A stretch of DNA of 64,000 nucleotides from a bacterium (lineage in GTDB: Bacteria > UBP6 > UBA1177). The position numbers and the translations under genes were made by a program. Under the pieces are notes generated by a model that had not been told where the DNA came from, ran no database searches, and saw only the letters and a list, made by a program, of their open reading frames with translations. The stretch covers positions 1 through 64,000 of the forward strand of contig JAGCUA010000047.1 in NCBI GenBank assembly GCA_017963125.1. The letters run 5' to 3'. Of the stretch, positions 47,629 through 54,473 are shown one piece after another. Positions within the stretch are counted from its first letter, which is position 1, and each line of letters starts with the position of its first letter.

Positions 47629-48510
47629 ATGGAATATTTGTCAGTGGCTCAGTTTGCAGAAAAGTCCGGCTTAAGCGAAAGGACAGTCCGCAACTACTGC
47701 GCTACCGGAAAGATGGAAGGTGCGTTTCTTGTCGGAAAAACGTGGAATATTCCATCAGATGCGGTTCTGCCAAAGCGCACGAAAACAAAGACAACTCCGC
47801 TTTTGACCGCACTACGCGATCAGAAAGAATCCAAACTTAAAGGAGGAATTTACCACAGGACGCAGGTCGAACTGACATACAGTTCGAACCACATCGAAGG
47901 GAGCCGCCTCACGAAAGATCAGACGCGGTTTATATTCGAGACTAACACGCTCGGATTCGCGTCAAAAAACACAAATGTCGATGATATTATTGAAACCGTC
48001 AATCATTTCAGGTGTATAGACTACGTGATCGACCATGCTCACGAAAAAATCACAGAATCACACATAAAGCAGCTTCACTCGATTTTGAAGGAATCGACTT
48101 CGGACAGCCGCAAATCGTGGTTCGCGGTCGGTGCATACAAGCGTTTCCCGAACGAAATCGGATTTGAGGAAACAACATTGCCTGAGGATGTCCACAGCCG
48201 TGTGAAAACGCTTCTTGCCGCTTACAACGCGCTGAAAGAGGTGAAATTTGACGATATTCTCGATTTTCATGTGCAGTTCGAGCGGATCCATCCGTTCCAG
48301 GACGGAAACGGCAGAGTCGGCAGACTTCTCATGTTCTGGCAGTGCCTTAAATCGGGAATTGTCCCCTTCATAATCACAGAGAATCTGCGCCTTTATTACT
48401 ACCGCGGGATCCAGAACTGGGGAAAACACAACGCATTCCTGCGCGACACCTGCCTTTCGGCACAGGATGACTACAAAGCACTGCTCGATTATTTCAGGAT
48501 CAAATATTGA
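47629..48510 (+). CDS. Fic family protein with N-terminal HTH (class II type)
   Basis: A 293-residue protein. Residues 1-45 (YLSVAQFAEKSGLSERTVRNYCATGKMEGAFLVGKTWNIP) are a MerR/excisionase-like helix-turn-helix. Then TYSSNHIEGSRL carries the S/TxxxEG inhibitory motif of class II Fic proteins, and the active site is HPFQDGNGRVGR. Fic enzymes transfer AMP or related groups to target proteins; the intramolecular inhibitory motif keeps them off. The HTH could allow autoregulation. Confidence 0.9.
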   Translation: MEYLSVAQFAEKSGLSERTVRNYCATGKMEGAFLVGKTWNIPSDAVLPKRTKTKTTPLLTALRDQKESKLKGGIYHRTQVELTYSSNHIEGSRLTKDQTRFIFETNTLGFASKNTNVDDIIETVNHFRCIDYVIDHAHEKITESHIKQLHSILKESTSDSRKSWFAVGAYKRFPNEIGFEETTLPEDVHSRVKTLLAAYNALKEVKFDDILDFHVQFERIHPFQDGNGRVGRLLMFWQCLKSGIVPFIITENLRLYYYRGIQNWGKHNAFLRDTCLSAQDDYKALLDYFRIKY

Positions 48511-48599: not shown

Positions 48600-49565
48600 A
48601 TGGCGAATTTAGAAAGAATTGCTTACATGAACCACAGGATCAAGACGCGCGGTTTTGTTACGCGGCAGGAAGTTGCGGAACGTTTTGAAGTCCACATCGA
48701 CACGGTTCTTCGGGACATCGGATATATGCGGGACTATCTTTCCGCGCCGATAAAATACAGCCGCGAGCTGGGCGGTTATGTTTACGAATCGCCTTTCGAG
48801 ATGCTTTTCGATTCTTTCGACGATGCTGTTTTCTACTATATTTTCGTTGGTCTGCTGAGTGATTCGATGAATCTGAACGGAATCCCTTATGTGCCTGTTA
48901 TTTCTAAAGAAATCCTTTCAAAAATCTCAAGTTACATTCCGGCAGAATTTGAGGAACTGCTTGATAAAATTTCTTACGATTCTTCCGATCTGGACACGAT
49001 GGAAGTGACCAATTTCAGAAATATTCTGGAATCACTGCTCTTGAAAGTGCGGCTTGAAATAAAGTATCTCGACTCAAAAGGCGACATAACTTTAAGAGCG
49101 ATAGAACCGATAAAGCTCATAAATTATTCGGGGAAATGGTATCTTTTGGCTTACTGCCACAAGCGGCACGGCCTTCGCGAGTTTCTTGTTTCGCGCTTTG
49201 TAGAAAGCCGCATCACGGAAGAGCCTTTTTCCGAAATCTACACGAAATCAGAGATCGATAAATTCGTCGGAAGCACCTTCGGAATATACCCGTCTGAAAA
49301 ATCGGAAACGGCGACCATCCGCATTTTTGAACCTGCGTCCTATTTCTTCCTTAAGCAGAAATGGCACAAAGACCAGGTCACGAAAGAAACCGTTGTTGAC
49401 GGGAAAAAATGTCTTGAAATCACTCTCCCGATCGGTGAATACCACAGTGAGATCATTGCCAGGGTAATGAGATATTCGCCTGAATGCGAGATCGTTTCTC
49501 CGCCGTCGCTTCGCAAAGAGTGGCTTGACCACATCAAAATGATCTACAACAAATACTGTAAATAA
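48600..49565 (+). CDS. WYL-domain transcription regulator
   Basis: A 321-residue protein. The start is set at ATG 48600 with GGAGAG upstream. The N-terminal HTH is FVTRQEVAERFEVHIDTVLRDIGYMR and the WYL domain carries GKWYLLAYCH and REFLVSRF. The C-terminal WCX region follows. WYL regulators bind ligands such as nucleic acids or nucleotides and often control defence loci. It precedes the LRR/FtsK-like/HNH cluster, whose promoter palindrome at 49584 may be its target. Confidence 0.9.
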   Translation: MANLERIAYMNHRIKTRGFVTRQEVAERFEVHIDTVLRDIGYMRDYLSAPIKYSRELGGYVYESPFEMLFDSFDDAVFYYIFVGLLSDSMNLNGIPYVPVISKEILSKISSYIPAEFEELLDKISYDSSDLDTMEVTNFRNILESLLLKVRLEIKYLDSKGDITLRAIEPIKLINYSGKWYLLAYCHKRHGLREFLVSRFVESRITEEPFSEIYTKSEIDKFVGSTFGIYPSEKSETATIRIFEPASYFFLKQKWHKDQVTKETVVDGKKCLEITLPIGEYHSEIIARVMRYSPECEIVSPPSLRKEWLDHIKMIYNKYCK

Positions 49566-49583
49566 TTTTTCAAAAAAATTTCA

Positions 49584-49618
49584 CTACGACGCTATATGTC
49601 GTAGCGGGCTTCTACAAT
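49584..49618 (+). promoter_or_regulatory. Palindromic operator-promoter, copy 1
   Basis: CTACGAC (49584-49590) and GTCGTAG (49598-49604) form an inverted repeat around GCTATAT. A -10-like TACAAT lies at 49613-49618. A related copy is at 53013-53047. Confidence 0.6.
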
Positions 49619-49675
49619 CCGTTTTCAGATTGGGACACTGTTCCCGTGTTTTTAATGATGAAAATGGAGGCGGAC

Positions 49676-50380
49676 ATGACTATTTTGGATGAAAAAATGG
49701 CAAAAGAACTTTTAAACAATGTAAGAAAACATGTGGTTATACCTGATTTTGTGACAGAAATCGGCGATCATGCGTTTGAAGACTGCGAAGAACTGACTTC
49801 GGTGGTTATTCCGAATTCAGTTAGAAAAATCGGTAAAGGTGCATTCCGTTGGTGCGACCACCTGATTTCTGTAGTTATTCCGAATTCAGTCGAGAAAATC
49901 GAATATGGCGCATTTATCAATTGCGCCCAGCTGAAATCAGTAATCATTCCGGATTCCGTGACAGAAATCGGCGAAAATGTTTTTCACTGTTGCTTCGAAC
50001 TGACTTCGATCACCGTTGACAAAAACAATCCGAGATACGACTCACGCGGAGACTGCAACGCAATAATCGAAACAGCCACAAACACTTTGATCAAAGGCTG
50101 TTCAAACACGATAATTCCAGATACAGTGACAACTATCGGTAAAAATGCCTTTGAAAACTGCGACATGACATCCGTGGTCATTCCGAATTCAGTTACAAAG
50201 ATAGAAGATTTCGCATTTTGCTGCTGTCAGGATCTAATATTCATAACGATCCCCGATTCCGTAACACAAATCGGAAAAGCTGCCTTTTGCGGTTGCCCCA
50301 AAATATCGGAAGAAAGCAAAAAACGGCTTAAGGAGCTAGGATATGATTTAGATGAGGATTTAGGCGAAAATGTTTATTGA
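49676..50380 (+). CDS. BspA-like leucine-rich repeat protein
   Basis: A 234-residue protein with about six LRR_5 (BspA) repeats of the form VVIPNSVxKIGxxAFxxCxxLxS. No signal peptide, so probably cytosolic. Start ATG 49676 after GGAGGCGGAC; an upstream in-frame start lacks such a site. First gene of a cluster preceded by the palindromic operator. The same repeat type is fused to the methylase at 11972. Confidence 0.85.
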   Translation: MTILDEKMAKELLNNVRKHVVIPDFVTEIGDHAFEDCEELTSVVIPNSVRKIGKGAFRWCDHLISVVIPNSVEKIEYGAFINCAQLKSVIIPDSVTEIGENVFHCCFELTSITVDKNNPRYDSRGDCNAIIETATNTLIKGCSNTIIPDTVTTIGKNAFENCDMTSVVIPNSVTKIEDFAFCCCQDLIFITIPDSVTQIGKAAFCGCPKISEESKKRLKELGYDLDEDLGENVY

Positions 50381-50401
50381 GTGCGAATAAAGGAGGACAT
50401 C

Positions 50402-51226
50402 ATGACTCACATCATTTACAGAAAAGACCTTAAAAAGATTTTTGACGAACCCAAAAATTTCCTGATTGCCGGGAAAGATGAAGACAATGCGGCCTGCATC
50501 GAAGCTTTACTGGGATCCATTTCCGAGAAGGCTCCGGATGAAGTCAAATTCGTGCTCATCGACACGAGAAACACTTTCAAAAAGTACGAAAACGATCCTC
50601 ACCTCTTCCTGCCGAGGATCACAGATGCTCACGAAGGAGTAAAAACGCTCGAACTTTTAGTTTCCGAGATGGAAAAACATTATCAAATGTTGGACAAAAA
50701 TCATGTCAGCGATATTGCGGAATACAATCAGGAGGCTGATCCGTCCAGCAAAATGCCTTTCATCAACATCATCGTAACCAATTTGGATGATATCATAGCA
50801 CTGGATGATGAAAGTGCAGGAATCTCCATCGCAAGTATCGCGCAAAAAGGAAAATCATGCGGCATCCACGTCTTTGTCGCACTCCGCAACATAAGGAGCG
50901 GAAGAAATAATCTCGGACGTATCAGAGCGAACATCGAGGCGACGATAGTTACCCCGAGACTCGACGATGAAGACAATTTTAAATTCTTTAAAATACACCT
51001 TGACGCATGTTCCTGTCTTTATGCCTTGTTTGAAAGCCCCAGTTATTTGGCAATAGTTCAGGAGAAACTCGGAATAGAGCCGCTTTTCAATGAAATGGTC
51101 GATTTTCTTTTTGCAAACGCTCACGAAATGCTTATGGAAAAATTCAATATCGACTACCACCGCGCAGCCAACGCATTGAAAATAATGAAGGAAACCGTCA
51201 AAAACAACTCGCCCTTCCCTTCTTAA
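50402..51226 (+). CDS. FtsK/SpoIIIE-like protein without Walker A
   Basis: A 274-residue protein. FVLIDTRNTFKKYENDPHLFLPRITDAHEGVKTLELLVSEMEKHY matches the FtsK motor segment (VLIDPK...PHLL-PVVTD), and MPFINIIVTNLDDII matches its Walker B strand, with Asp in the usual place but the first Asp-Glu pair changed. The P-loop is replaced by FLIAGKDEDNAA. The C-terminal RAANALKIMK resembles the end of FtsK gamma domains. It is probably inactive as a motor. ATG 50402 has AGGAGG upstream. It sits 21 nt after the LRR gene. Confidence 0.65.
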   Translation: MTHIIYRKDLKKIFDEPKNFLIAGKDEDNAACIEALLGSISEKAPDEVKFVLIDTRNTFKKYENDPHLFLPRITDAHEGVKTLELLVSEMEKHYQMLDKNHVSDIAEYNQEADPSSKMPFINIIVTNLDDIIALDDESAGISIASIAQKGKSCGIHVFVALRNIRSGRNNLGRIRANIEATIVTPRLDDEDNFKFFKIHLDACSCLYALFESPSYLAIVQEKLGIEPLFNEMVDFLFANAHEMLMEKFNIDYHRAANALKIMKETVKNNSPFPS

Positions 51227-51321
51227 CAATTCCGCAACTTAGCTGAATTTTTTAAAATAAAAGTTATTGGAAATAGTTTTTTGTGTAATATAATGCTGTG
51301 TTTTTCGAGAGGGAGAAAAAA

Positions 51322-51357
51322 ATGACTCTTAAAACCGAAATGAATAAAAATTTTTAG
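51322..51357 (+). pseudogene. Truncated gene start (11 codons)
   Basis: A good promoter (TTGGAA at 51267-51272, 16-bp spacer, TATAAT at 51289-51294) and ribosome-binding site precede ATG 51322, but the frame MTLKTEMNKNF stops at 51357. The A/T-rich HNH gene begins 30 nt later. This looks like the beginning of a gene cut off by insertion of the HNH gene. Confidence 0.35.
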
Positions 51358-51387
51358 CTAAATAAATAATAGGAGGAAGTGATTATC

Positions 51388-52899
51388 ATGGCAACAATTA
51401 TGAAACGTCAATTGAATGACGAGGAAAAACGAACTATTTTGAATCAACATGGCAGGATTTGCTATGCAACAGGGCACCCAATTCCAGAAGGTGAAAAGAT
51501 ACATTTCGACCATATAAAAGCCTATGTAAATAATGGGCCTACAGACTTGAATAACATTGCTCCAATGTGCGAAAAGCACAATTTGCAAAAAGGACAATTG
51601 CCTCTGGAAGATTTTAGGATAAAATTACGAATTGAAGATTTTTTCAATCAAGGGCAAAGATTAACATTAAAAGACTTGCTGAAATATTTAAAGGAAAAAA
51701 AGGACATCGAATCGTTTGGCGAAGCTGTTTCTATAAAAGAGTTCGAGGGAAAAATTATTTTAGAAAACGCATCATTTAAAGAAGAATTTAAAGTTGAAAC
51801 ATGTCCTTTAACAGGGTGGAAATATTTTTACTGCAAATTACCTGTGAATGTGTTAGATAGTGATGATGATAATGAACACTCTCAAGGATTGCAACCTCGA
51901 TATCTAATATCGGAGAAAGTTTTTCAAATGTTTAGACATTTCCAAAATTTTCCTGTCTTACAACCTTCAATTGGAAGAATAGAAAAAGGAAAAATTTTAC
52001 TGTTTGATGGTCAGCATAAAGTAGCAGCCTTATTGTGGACAGGCAGAAAGGATTTTGAATGTAAAATTTACATAAATCCAGACTTAGAAAAATTGAACCA
52101 AGCAAATATCTCTGCCCATGATAAATTTGCTCAAACAAGATTTTTTTCTTCAATTATGGTATTGAAACTGGGCGCGCAATTTGGAAAAGATTTTGATGAT
52201 TATAAGAATAATGAAAGCATTCTTCAGAAAACAGAACAAGGTTTTCTTGAATACATAAGCAATAAAGACGTTGCCCAAACAAAAGGCGAAATAAAGGAAA
52301 AATTTAGGAGTTATCTTTACAATTCAATCTTGGAAGATGAAAATAATAAATGGCGACCTTTAGTATCTACTTCAAACAGAGGATCAAAAGAACAACCTAT
52401 AACATTGGATGTGTTGAAAAAATCTATTTTTGCAAATTTTCTATACACAGAACCATTAACAGACAATATACTTTCAGACAATTACAAAAGGGATGTCGAG
52501 GCCGAAAATGTTATAAAACTTATGAATTTACTTTTTGATCAAACTTTGCAAAACTGGAATTCTTCTGCATCACCAAATGATATGAATCAATTAAAATTGA
52601 CCAGGCTGTTTTCGTCAAAATCAATAATGGCATGGTCGGACATTTTTAAGGATGCTATAAGCGCAAAGTTAGAAATTAATGACACTGAAGAAAGGGCTAT
52701 GTTTTTTTATCGTTACCTAAATGACAGTGATTTAAAGAAGATAAATGATATTATTATTCGTCTTGTTTCTTGGAAAATGTGGAATTCTCCAAAAAATTCA
52801 GATATAGACAACATGATTTCAACTAACAAGGCAACATTAAAAAAATGGTTTAAAGAAAATAACCTCACAACAGGTTATTTAATGGGAGCTTCGGAATAA
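51388..52899 (+). CDS. HNH endonuclease with ParB/DndB-like DGQHK domain
   Basis: A 503-residue protein. The N-terminal HNH nuclease shows RICYATGHPIP...IHFDHIKAYVNNGPTDLNNIAPMCEKHN. The middle contains SIGRIEKGKILLFDGQHKVAALLW, the DGQH(R/K) motif seen in DndB-like and ParB-like NTPase folds. The C-terminal half is helical and unknown. The gene is clearly more A/T-rich than its neighbours, which suggests recent acquisition. Start ATG 51388 is chosen; a GTG at 51379 is also possible. Likely a DNA-targeting defence nuclease. Confidence 0.75.
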   Translation: MATIMKRQLNDEEKRTILNQHGRICYATGHPIPEGEKIHFDHIKAYVNNGPTDLNNIAPMCEKHNLQKGQLPLEDFRIKLRIEDFFNQGQRLTLKDLLKYLKEKKDIESFGEAVSIKEFEGKIILENASFKEEFKVETCPLTGWKYFYCKLPVNVLDSDDDNEHSQGLQPRYLISEKVFQMFRHFQNFPVLQPSIGRIEKGKILLFDGQHKVAALLWTGRKDFECKIYINPDLEKLNQANISAHDKFAQTRFFSSIMVLKLGAQFGKDFDDYKNNESILQKTEQGFLEYISNKDVAQTKGEIKEKFRSYLYNSILEDENNKWRPLVSTSNRGSKEQPITLDVLKKSIFANFLYTEPLTDNILSDNYKRDVEAENVIKLMNLLFDQTLQNWNSSASPNDMNQLKLTRLFSSKSIMAWSDIFKDAISAKLEINDTEERAMFFYRYLNDSDLKKINDIIIRLVSWKMWNSPKNSDIDNMISTNKATLKKWFKENNLTTGYLMGASE

Positions 52900-53012
52900 T
52901 ATCTTTTCATTTAATCTTGTTATTTATCCTAAATTTGCGAAAACCTTTCAGCCCCAAAAATCAAAAAATTTAAATCTATAAAAATTTCTGCACATAAACC
53001 AAAAAATTTCCC

Positions 53013-53047
53013 CTACGACGCTATATGTCGTAGCGGACTCTTATAAT
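53013..53047 (+). promoter_or_regulatory. Palindromic operator-promoter, copy 2
   Basis: CTACGAC (53013-53019) and GTCGTAG (53027-53033) around GCTATAT, and TATAAT at 53042-53047. It is followed only by tiny frames, so this promoter has lost its gene. The surrounding 52900-53136 has no other feature that I can see. Confidence 0.55.
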
Positions 53048-53136
53048 CCGTTTCAGGTCGGAAATGAAAAAATGAAAGATGCCGTCAAACGCAATTCTTA
53101 GTTTCTGCCCTAAAACAAATCTGAATGAGTCCCCGT

Positions 53137-53406
53137 TTATTTTTCCTCGTCTAACGCACTTTTGAATGACGAATATCTTTTGTATTTTTCGGGATGAAGA
53201 AGCATCTCCTGATATTCTCCGAGTGCGGCGAGCGTCTCTTCGTTCGGAACTTTCGTCACCGCGAAAGGAAGACTCTGCGTGCGGACTGCCTGCTTCAGAA
53301 AAATCGTGACAGCAGTCGTGAGATCCATTCCCAAGTCTGCAAAAAGCAGCTGCGCACTCTTTTTTAAATCACTGTCCAGATTGATGTTTGTGCTTACTCT
53401 CGTCAT
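53137..53406 (-). CDS. RelB/DinJ family antitoxin (orphan)
   Basis: An 89-residue protein from ATG 53406 (GGAGGTTATT upstream). MTRVSTNINLDSDLKKSAQLLFADLGMDLTTAVTIFLKQAVRTQSLPF is a RelB/DinJ ribbon-helix-helix. It normally neutralises a RelE-type mRNA-cleaving toxin and represses its own promoter. No RelE gene lies downstream on the same strand, so the antitoxin is solitary here. A nested operator lies upstream. Confidence 0.9.
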   Translation of the reverse strand: MTRVSTNINLDSDLKKSAQLLFADLGMDLTTAVTIFLKQAVRTQSLPFAVTKVPNEETLAALGEYQEMLLHPEKYKRYSSFKSALDEEK

Positions 53407-53600: not shown

Positions 53601-54473
53601 ATGAGCAAAATTTCAATCCGTTTCTTTAATGACCGCGAGGTCAGAGCCGTATGGGACGAGGAAAATTCGAAATGGTGGTTTTCAGCTATTGACATAATTC
53701 AGGCAATTAACAAAGAACCTGACTATGTCAAAGCCGGAAACTACTGGAGATGGTTAAAAAAGAAATTTACAGCTGAAAATATTCAACTCGTGAGTGTCAC
53801 TCACGACTTCAAATTCAAGGCTCCCGACGGAAAAAAACGTGCGGCAGATGCGCTCGACTACGATGCAGTTCAGATTCTGGCAAAAAACTTTCCGAACAAC
53901 AAAGCCGTGAATTTCCTTGATTGGTTTAATTACAGCGACAATACTCTTGACGGTCAGAGCAAGAAAAAAGCATATACTTTTTTGCAAAGCAATCTTATTG
54001 CCGACAAGGATGTCGGAACAACAAAAGCCCTACAACAAATCCACGCATACATTTTCGGCGGTTTGTACGATTTCGCGGGTCAGATCCGCACAAAAACGAT
54101 AAGTAAAGGCGGATTCAAGTTCTGTGTCGCCGAATATCTGGAGAGTGCGCTGAAAAAAATCGAGCAAATGCCCGAAAACACTTTCGATGAAATCGTTGAC
54201 AAGTATGTCGAAATGAATGTCGCTCACCCGTTTATGGAAGGAAACGGCCGAAGCACACGCATCTGGCTTGACATGATATTCAAAAAACGCCTTTTAAAAT
54301 GCGTCGACTGGAGCAGAATCGGAAAGAAAGACTATCTTGATGCCATGAGGGAAAGCCACTACGACCCGGCAAAAATCAAAGAGCTGCTGAGAAATGCTCT
54401 CACCGACAAGATCGACGACCGCGAAATGTTTATGAAAGGTATCGATTATTCGTATTATTACGAAGAAATATAA
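53601..54473 (+). CDS. Fic protein with N-terminal Bro-N-like domain
   Basis: A 290-residue protein from ATG 53601 (TAGGAG upstream). Residues 5-100 (ISIRFFNDREVRAVWDEENSKWWFSAIDIIQAIN) resemble the phage antirepressor Bro-N domain. The Fic core has HPFMEGNGRSTR and a C-terminal GIDYSYYYEE common to this Fic group. No internal S/TxxxE(G/N) inhibitory helix was seen, so inhibition may come from elsewhere. Divergent from relB. Confidence 0.9.
   Translation: MSKISIRFFNDREVRAVWDEENSKWWFSAIDIIQAINKEPDYVKAGNYWRWLKKKFTAENIQLVSVTHDFKFKAPDGKKRAADALDYDAVQILAKNFPNNKAVNFLDWFNYSDNTLDGQSKKKAYTFLQSNLIADKDVGTTKALQQIHAYIFGGLYDFAGQIRTKTISKGGFKFCVAEYLESALKKIEQMPENTFDEIVDKYVEMNVAHPFMEGNGRSTRIWLDMIFKKRLLKCVDWSRIGKKDYLDAMRESHYDPAKIKELLRNALTDKIDDREMFMKGIDYSYYYEEI

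Follow-up and report, generated by a model that had tools for sequence, protein, structure and literature searches.

What is a promoter-like sequence doing on both sides of a three-gene cluster? The cluster, an LRR gene, an FtsK-like gene, and an HNH gene, lies just downstream of a gene for a WYL-domain regulator (hereafter, WYL-A) in the 64,000-nucleotide stretch that we analyzed (hereafter, the window), which is positions 1 to 64,000 of contig JAGCUA010000047.1 from assembly GCA_017963125.1, a bacterium of the GTDB lineage UBP6; UBA1177. An earlier, sequence-only reading of the window described imperfect direct repeats holding a palindromic operator and a promoter, suggested that the cluster was inserted by recombination at this promoter or by its duplication, and named the WYL protein as a possible binder. 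After comparing the locus with those of related genomes, we consider it probable that the repeats belong to a WYL-activated array of interchangeable defense cassettes exchanged by homologous recombination.

Two copies of an operator-promoter-like element

The two copies (49,571–49,624 and 53,000–53,053) are identical at 47 of 54 positions, in register. Elsewhere in the window, the best match to copy 1 on either strand is 29/54, and 300 random window 54-mers reached at best 39/54, with none at 47, so the reported match of about 55 bp is real. A 24-base core, CTACGACGCTATATGTCGTAGCGG, is the same in both copies; 100 dinucleotide shuffles gave no match to it at three or fewer mismatches, and the 2.76-Mb genome of the organism (G000) contains it only twice, even at that tolerance. 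The CTACGAC/GTCGTAG palindrome and the −10-like box of the earlier description are both present, the latter as TACAAT in copy 1 and TATAAT in copy 2.

Across the 32 copies that we collected (see below), a block of about 63 bp is conserved, from −13 to +49 relative to the core start, with the pattern TACGAC-N7-GTCGTA-N9-TA(C/T)AAT and a poor −35. Hexamers were scored against the consensus TTGACA (−35) and TATAAT (−10). The −10, TACAAT or TATAAT (once TATGAT), lies 9 bp past the right arm in 32/32 copies, and the best −35 candidate, with one to three matches of six, falls inside the palindrome. A ribosome-binding site and start codon opening a frame of at least 50 amino acids (aa) follow 45–79 nt past the core in 23 of the 31 copies with enough sequence, our own two included, while 8% of random positions in the same loci have such a site and start within 20–110 nt. 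Six more copies have a candidate start at 131–247 nt, and two have none. Palindrome, −10-like box, and spacing together support the operator-promoter reading of the repeat.

In the window, the copy 1 block begins 5 bp past the WYL-A stop codon, and its core lies 18 bp past it. As far as the sequence of this genome tells, the right copy indeed drives nothing: behind it come a 9-codon open reading frame (ORF) and an antisense RelB gene, and its distant candidate start, that of a 50-aa ORF 245 nt downstream, looks spurious. The leader that ends in the 9-codon ORF is near-identical in one copy each of two relatives (G004 and G003), and copy 2 seems to open a terminal, decayed cassette.

Other origins of the repeat were tried and rejected: an insertion linked to a tRNA or an Rfam element (an Rfam and tRNA scan of the window found only three tRNAs, at 1.3–1.6 kb); a dispersed repeat of the repetitive extragenic palindrome or miniature inverted-repeat transposable element type (copies are few, clustered, and on one strand within each array piece, and all 32 hold the −10-like box); and carriage by a phage or plasmid (viral contigs gave no exact match to the 21-base palindrome, and plasmids no match to the operator-LRR stretch).

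The array in related genomes

The genus set comprises 15 genomes, G000 included, and public records describe the relatives mostly as metagenome-assembled genomes from the rumen or other ruminant gut. WYL-A orthologues, 92–99% identical and some of them incomplete, occur in 12 of the 15, our own included. Of 99 genomes, 11 contain the pattern CTACGAC-N5..9-GTCGTAGCGG, every one in this genus, and the operator-promoter pattern at one mismatch or fewer has 30 matches, spread over 11 of the 15 genus genomes (reversed-pattern control, 0). A looser scan of the fetched loci yields 32 copies on 13 array pieces from the same 11 genomes. The copies point one way within each array piece and number up to five per locus, and on all nine contigs that hold both, one of them lies no more than 1.3 kb downstream of WYL-A. 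In G008 the contig stops 42 bp past the WYL coding match, close to the expected position of the repeat, as an assembly break at a repeat would produce; G005 has no operator and only part of WYL-A, at the end of a contig, and neither was found in G011 or G014. A plsX-rpmF flank downstream is common to six loci (G000, G001, G004, G007, G009, and G012). The repeats and the array, like the cassette turnover, the breakpoint positions, and the operator geometry and its variation with WYL clade described below, are read directly from these sequences.

Among the loci fetched, none is an empty site with a single repeat and no cluster, the form that the sequence-only reading had proposed to look for; there are only replaced sites (e.g., in G004, where two copies stand around an NYN gene). 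Of the insertion proposal, exchange at the element stands, as the breakpoints below suggest, but a single flanked LRR/FtsK-like/HNH insertion is too narrow a description, the cluster being one instance of the array.

Cassette contents and exchange

Cassette families were assigned with Pfam on representatives and otherwise by blastn or by eye; the eye labels Lcl_C, PIN, PDDEXK_4, Bro-N, NYN, and plsX were borne out by a Pfam scan of 16 further proteins. The genes between copies vary by species and include GmrSD, McrBC, PDDEXK, GIY-YIG, HNH, NYN, AbiE, and HsdM (Table 1). An LRR gene follows nine copies, and all nine LRR copies in the 15 genomes (78–100% identity) stand behind operators, two per array in G001, G003, and G007, where LRR units are duplicated. 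An antisense Abi_2 gene lies between WYL and the next operator in G004, G002, and G013. Many cargo genes are assigned to defense families, and such genes, clustered and changing between species, give the locus the appearance of a defense island. Among ten proteins submitted to PADLOC, both GmrSD proteins matched strongly (E 1e-77 and 2e-112), and WYL, the AAA_5 ATPases, FtsK-like, and PDDEXK_4 proteins more weakly.

Table 1. Cassettes behind the operators in the genus
Genome	Contents
G000	LRR, FtsK-like, HNH
G001	LRR, GmrSD; LRR, AAA_5 ATPase with McrBC; lipoprotein
G003	LRR, GmrSD; LRR, PDDEXK_4; Bro-N; lipoprotein
G004	NYN (antisense); Lcl_C lipoprotein
G007	LRR, GmrSD; LRR, FtsK-like, another GmrSD; FtsK-like, Bro-N, NYN (antisense); Lcl_C lipoprotein
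G009	LRR, GIY-YIG, NYN (antisense); Lcl_C lipoprotein
G010	AAA_5 with McrBC; PIN (antisense); ORF6N; Lcl_C protein and FtsK-like
G013	LRR, PDDEXK_4; Lcl_C protein
G013, second contig, behind operator	AbiEi (below Pfam cut-off), AbiEii, HsdM, YhcG

Breakpoints were counted with blastn among the 13 array pieces, leaving out the pieces without a core from G008, G006 (C31), G003 (C19), and G005, and were compared with 1000 random circular shifts of the landmarks. Of the segment starts that are not at contig ends, 59/143 fall 5–40 bp left of the core start in both partners (permuted expectation: mean 0.02, at most 1). Segment ends lie within 25 bp of the LRR stop codon in both partners in 28 of 145 cases (permuted mean 0.005, at most 1), and for 18 of these the distance is no more than 5 bp. 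This clustering points to two recurring edges, the left edge of the operator and the LRR stop. Behind the LRR gene, the G000 sequence is 97% identical to that of G007 through the FtsK-like gene and then switches to HNH (blastn); in G007, where that gene is 97–98% identical and also lies behind an LRR gene, a GmrSD nuclease comes next. Some of the exchange therefore takes place behind the LRR and FtsK-like genes.

The WYL protein as candidate binder

The adjoining WYL protein, which the sequence-only reading had singled out, appears to be the best candidate for binding the repeats. Its Pfam matches to WCX and helix-turn-helix (HTH) are below the cut-offs, and profile searches against the PDB rank PafBC (4e-18) above BrxR (3.7e-12), CapW (9.2e-10), and DriD (8.5e-8). 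Foldseek, run on a modest AlphaFold model (mean predicted local distance difference test 75, predicted template modeling score 0.51), places PafBC and DriD first, above BrxR and CapW; identity to full-length DriD is 13–14% in the Foldseek alignments. Protein similarity does not decide between activator and repressor. All 28 WYL proteins in an alignment share residues W180, Y181, and R199 (an alignment that excludes L110, a double, and L114, which contains stops).

Paralogous WYL genes vary the arms and keep the geometry. The WYL-B clade (67–68% identity) is accompanied by the palindrome TCAGGC/GCCTGA and the WYL-C clade (58%) by TTGGGC/GCCCAA, both with six-base arms, a 7-bp spacer, and 9 bp to the −10; the B and C paralogues have an operator upstream of their own gene. 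These palindromes were spotted by reading WYL flanks and then tested with a geometry grid on 54 flanking sides, from 27 loci that are related to each other (L110 equals L021, which leaves 52 distinct sides). A spacer of 7 with a −10 distance of 9 matched 22/54; other geometries matched 0–3, except 5/12 with 8, and shifted views of the same palindromes also scored high. The amino acid that precedes the RDI motif of the HTH differs between the clades (A, L; B, M; C, K), and a 51% identical WYL relative in G016 has K at this position with arms TTGGAC/GCCCAA.

Separately, B-type operators stand ahead of Lcl_C proteins (L077, L120), and Lcl_C also occupies the last array cassette of several relatives. 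C-type operators, at one mismatch, lie upstream of a dynamin-like protein in G000 (L117, C65:82500-93500) and of an IIGP-like GTPase in G003 (L118, C19:62500-71000).

The A-type box extends beyond the genus. Of 193 genomes, 13, which belong to three genera of the family, contain TACGAC-N7-GTCGTA-N9-TANNAT, and none contains the reversed pattern. In G016, from a sister genus, one match (L159, C201) lies before cas3-cas5-csd1, which we take to be a type I-C system. The other (L160, C112) precedes a type I restriction hsdM by about 250 bp, and AbiEii lies on the far side; a distant WYL gene of the same genome has a divergent TACGAC-N7-GTCGCA box. One match in G018 is divergent from a WYL gene and ahead of a cREC_REC protein, and the other is near a contig end. 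A link of the box to defense genes thus finds support in sequence, in a few cases.

Genes around the repeats

The features of the locus are listed in Table 2. The FtsK-like protein has no GxxxxGK[ST] (P-loop) motif. Its nearest relatives outside the array are long chromosomal FtsK-like proteins, about 35–37% identical over residues 37–179. It may be a decoy or a regulator derived from the host FtsK. The HNH protein was not found in the other 14 genus genomes; among 99 genomes its sole full-length relative is in G026, from another family of the phylum (55% identity), as lateral transfer would fit, and two further matches are restricted to the HNH region (32–33%).

The RelB gene has no obvious toxin gene adjoining, and its stretch has homologs in the arrays of G010, G013, and G006 (blastn). 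At this position, relatives with the same right flank carry an Lcl_C lipoprotein (G004, G007, and G009; G001 and G012 by blastn), and homology to G009 resumes where the shared flank begins (blastn). Fic-domain genes of two kinds stand on either side of the array (47629–48510 and 53601–54473).

Table 2. Features of the array locus, in window coordinates
Feature	Position	Strand	Support or remark
WYL-A regulator, 321 aa, HTH-WYL-WCX, candidate binder of the repeats	48600..49565	+	Pfam WYL E 1.8e-15
Repeat copy 1, operator-promoter-like block	49571..49633	+	63-bp block conserved across 32 copies
DriD-type box, copy 1: TACGAC-GCTATAT-GTCGTA	49585..49603	+	
−10-like TACAAT, copy 1	49613..49618	+	9 bp past right arm; best −35 match 2/6
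LRR_5 (BspA-type) protein, 234 aa; comes first in several cassettes	49676..50380	+	Pfam LRR_5 E 5.8e-48
FtsK-like motor domain, 274 aa	50402..51226	+	Pfam FtsK_SpoIIIE E 6.4e-16
HNH-domain protein, 503 aa	51388..52899	+	Pfam HNH E 6.2e-5
Repeat copy 2, operator-promoter-like block belonging to one more cassette, apparently decayed	53000..53062	+	
DriD-type box, copy 2	53014..53032	+	
−10-like TATAAT, copy 2	53042..53047	+	
9-codon ORF MKDAVKRNS behind copy 2	53072..53101	+	
RelB-type antitoxin gene, antisense	53137..53406	−	Pfam RelB E 6.5e-8
Shared right flank: Fic gene, FA_synthesis/plsX, ribosomal L32	53498..56206		blastn, Pfam

Discussion

The closest published counterpart of the box is the site of DriD from Caulobacter. 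In the parts of a preprint that we drew on (PMC12340889), its consensus is ATACGAC(X)7GTCGTAT, its sites keep one distance from the −10 and are centered on −35s with one or two matches of six, and DriD is a homodimeric activator that binds single-stranded DNA. The array box has the same 12 inner bases and 7-bp spacing, a likewise constant −10 distance (the constancy, not the value, is what is compared), and a poor −35; as in the DriD regulon, a wHTH-WYL-WCX protein would serve several promoters. DriD controls DNA-damage genes at separate promoters, whereas the array promoters lie in one locus and bound exchangeable, often defense-related cassettes.

From these observations we infer the binding, activation, signal, anti-phage function, and mode of exchange in the following scheme. 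The repeats would be operator-promoters under the WYL regulator whose gene lies just upstream, and a homodimer of this protein would bind TACGAC-N7-GTCGTA over the weak −35, 9 bp before the −10. Most likely it would activate transcription in the manner of DriD, activation being favored because of the DriD box and the poor −35, and the trigger would probably be a nucleic acid that signals infection or DNA damage. Each promoter would drive one cassette—often LRR, sometimes FtsK-like, then a nuclease or other effector. Many cassettes and species have promoter and LRR blocks that closely resemble each other, so homologous recombination could swap effectors between arrays, and newcomers would come under the same regulator. 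In a bolder form, which we hold tentatively and at a little less than an even chance, this is a promoter-based cassette system in which closely similar operator-promoter and LRR blocks provide control and, at the same time, serve as homology arms. Defense modules gained by recombination would wire themselves immediately to a single sensor of infection or damage, with no dedicated recombinase, and the same box would coordinate CRISPR-Cas and type I restriction in the sister genus.

Several observations weigh against this activated, recombining array. The blastn segments are not independent events, and most of their starts and ends fall elsewhere than at the two edges. The LRR, HNH, and one McrBC protein had no match among the ten proteins submitted to PADLOC, and the Lcl_C lipoproteins, along with several unknown genes, are not among the known defense genes. 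The regulator and operator do not always keep company: G012 has an operator and WYL-A was not found there (the genome is 83% complete), G010 has five operators but a WYL-A with an internal deletion (about residues 109–245), and in G006 the two are on separate contigs. In 13 pieces inspected by eye, the 150 bp upstream of WYL-A show no operator, whereas the B and C paralogues have one. A palindrome of the 7/9 geometry is missing from six of the nine distinct distant WYL loci that were scanned and from a 62% relative in G011, and the arms do not follow overall WYL similarity, a distant clade (31–33%) also having TACGAC. The repressors BrxR and CapW outscore DriD in the sequence profiles, over the WYL domain only, with PafBC above all. 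Finally, the 7-bp spacer is nearly invariant (31/32) though operator function has no obvious need of this, which recent homogenization or a recombination site would explain.

WYL-A could instead repress the cassettes until a phage-derived ligand relieves it, as for CapW and BrxR. We think this unlikely, though it has a basis: both are WYL repressors of defense operons (PMC9122601 and PMC9122588, as far as the sections used here go) with the higher profile scores just noted, a dimer sitting over the −35 could keep RNA polymerase out, and restriction cargo, we suppose, can be costly. Like the array, these regulators of BREX (bacteriophage exclusion), CBASS (cyclic oligonucleotide-based antiphage signaling), and defense islands stand next to restriction or defense genes and have palindromic operators. 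However, in the same sections, BrxR boxes combine 11-bp arms with a spacer of 5 bp, and CapW binds sites that overlap the −10, whereas the array has arms of 6–7 bp and a spacer of 7, over the position of a poor −35 (1–3/6); both its half-sites and its spacer match those of DriD, an activator, and Foldseek, on its modest model, prefers DriD to both repressors. The pEFER island has two BrxR boxes and no more, according to its authors (PMC9122601, in the part used). In the portion of PMC12255303 used here, the RptR restriction island likewise has a dedicated regulator at its head; RptR is a small alpha-helical repressor with three short palindromes in one promoter.

Architecturally, the nearest analogue to the array is the defense cassettes of integrons, which are likewise repeat-delimited, exchangeable, and inclusive of anti-phage genes (PMC12409362, in the passages seen). 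This raises the idea that the repeat is an integron- or Xer-like site, with 7-bp arms and a 7-bp overlap, at which a recombinase mobilizes the cassettes; the left-edge breakpoints at the repeat, the head-to-tail array, and the invariance of the asymmetric spacer would fit. We nevertheless regard it as very improbable. Integron cassettes need an integrase and attC and mostly share one upstream promoter, whereas each array copy is promoter-like, with a −10-like box, and gene starts mostly follow at near-constant distance; the same geometry occurs singly beside paralogous WYL genes, and the LRR stop, rather than the repeat, is where some breakpoints lie. A search for tyrosine recombinases (PF00589), which did not extend to serine recombinases, found none on the 13 array contigs (4.5–118 kb, partly ending in the array). 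Off these contigs PF00589 matches occur in 14 of the 15 genomes, mostly two that we read as XerC/XerD-like from length and score; a PF00589 protein of about 400 aa, frequent in the genus, was not found in G004 and G006 although arrays are there. We give equally little credence to the repeats being mere remnants of tandem duplication of a constitutive promoter-LRR unit, unrelated to the WYL gene. The duplicated LRR units speak for it; against it, the operator also stands ahead of lipoprotein, AAA_5/McrB-like, AbiEi-like, and MTILD proteins, its sequence fits a published WYL box, and its geometry recurs at paralogous WYL genes.

Literature searches found no publication describing such an array, and a term search of the PMC11834463 text, as far as that text was covered, found no mention of WYL or cassettes.

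To our knowledge, the common control of many acquired defense systems in bacteria is a largely open question. If the WYL-activated array is real, it suggests that new defense modules arrive pre-wired, the regulator's site and a promoter traveling with each module or waiting for it. Arms that vary with WYL clade at constant geometry permit specificity-swap tests, and TACGAC-N7-GTCGTA-N9-TANNAT would be usable to seek WYL-controlled defense operons in other uncultured bacteria.

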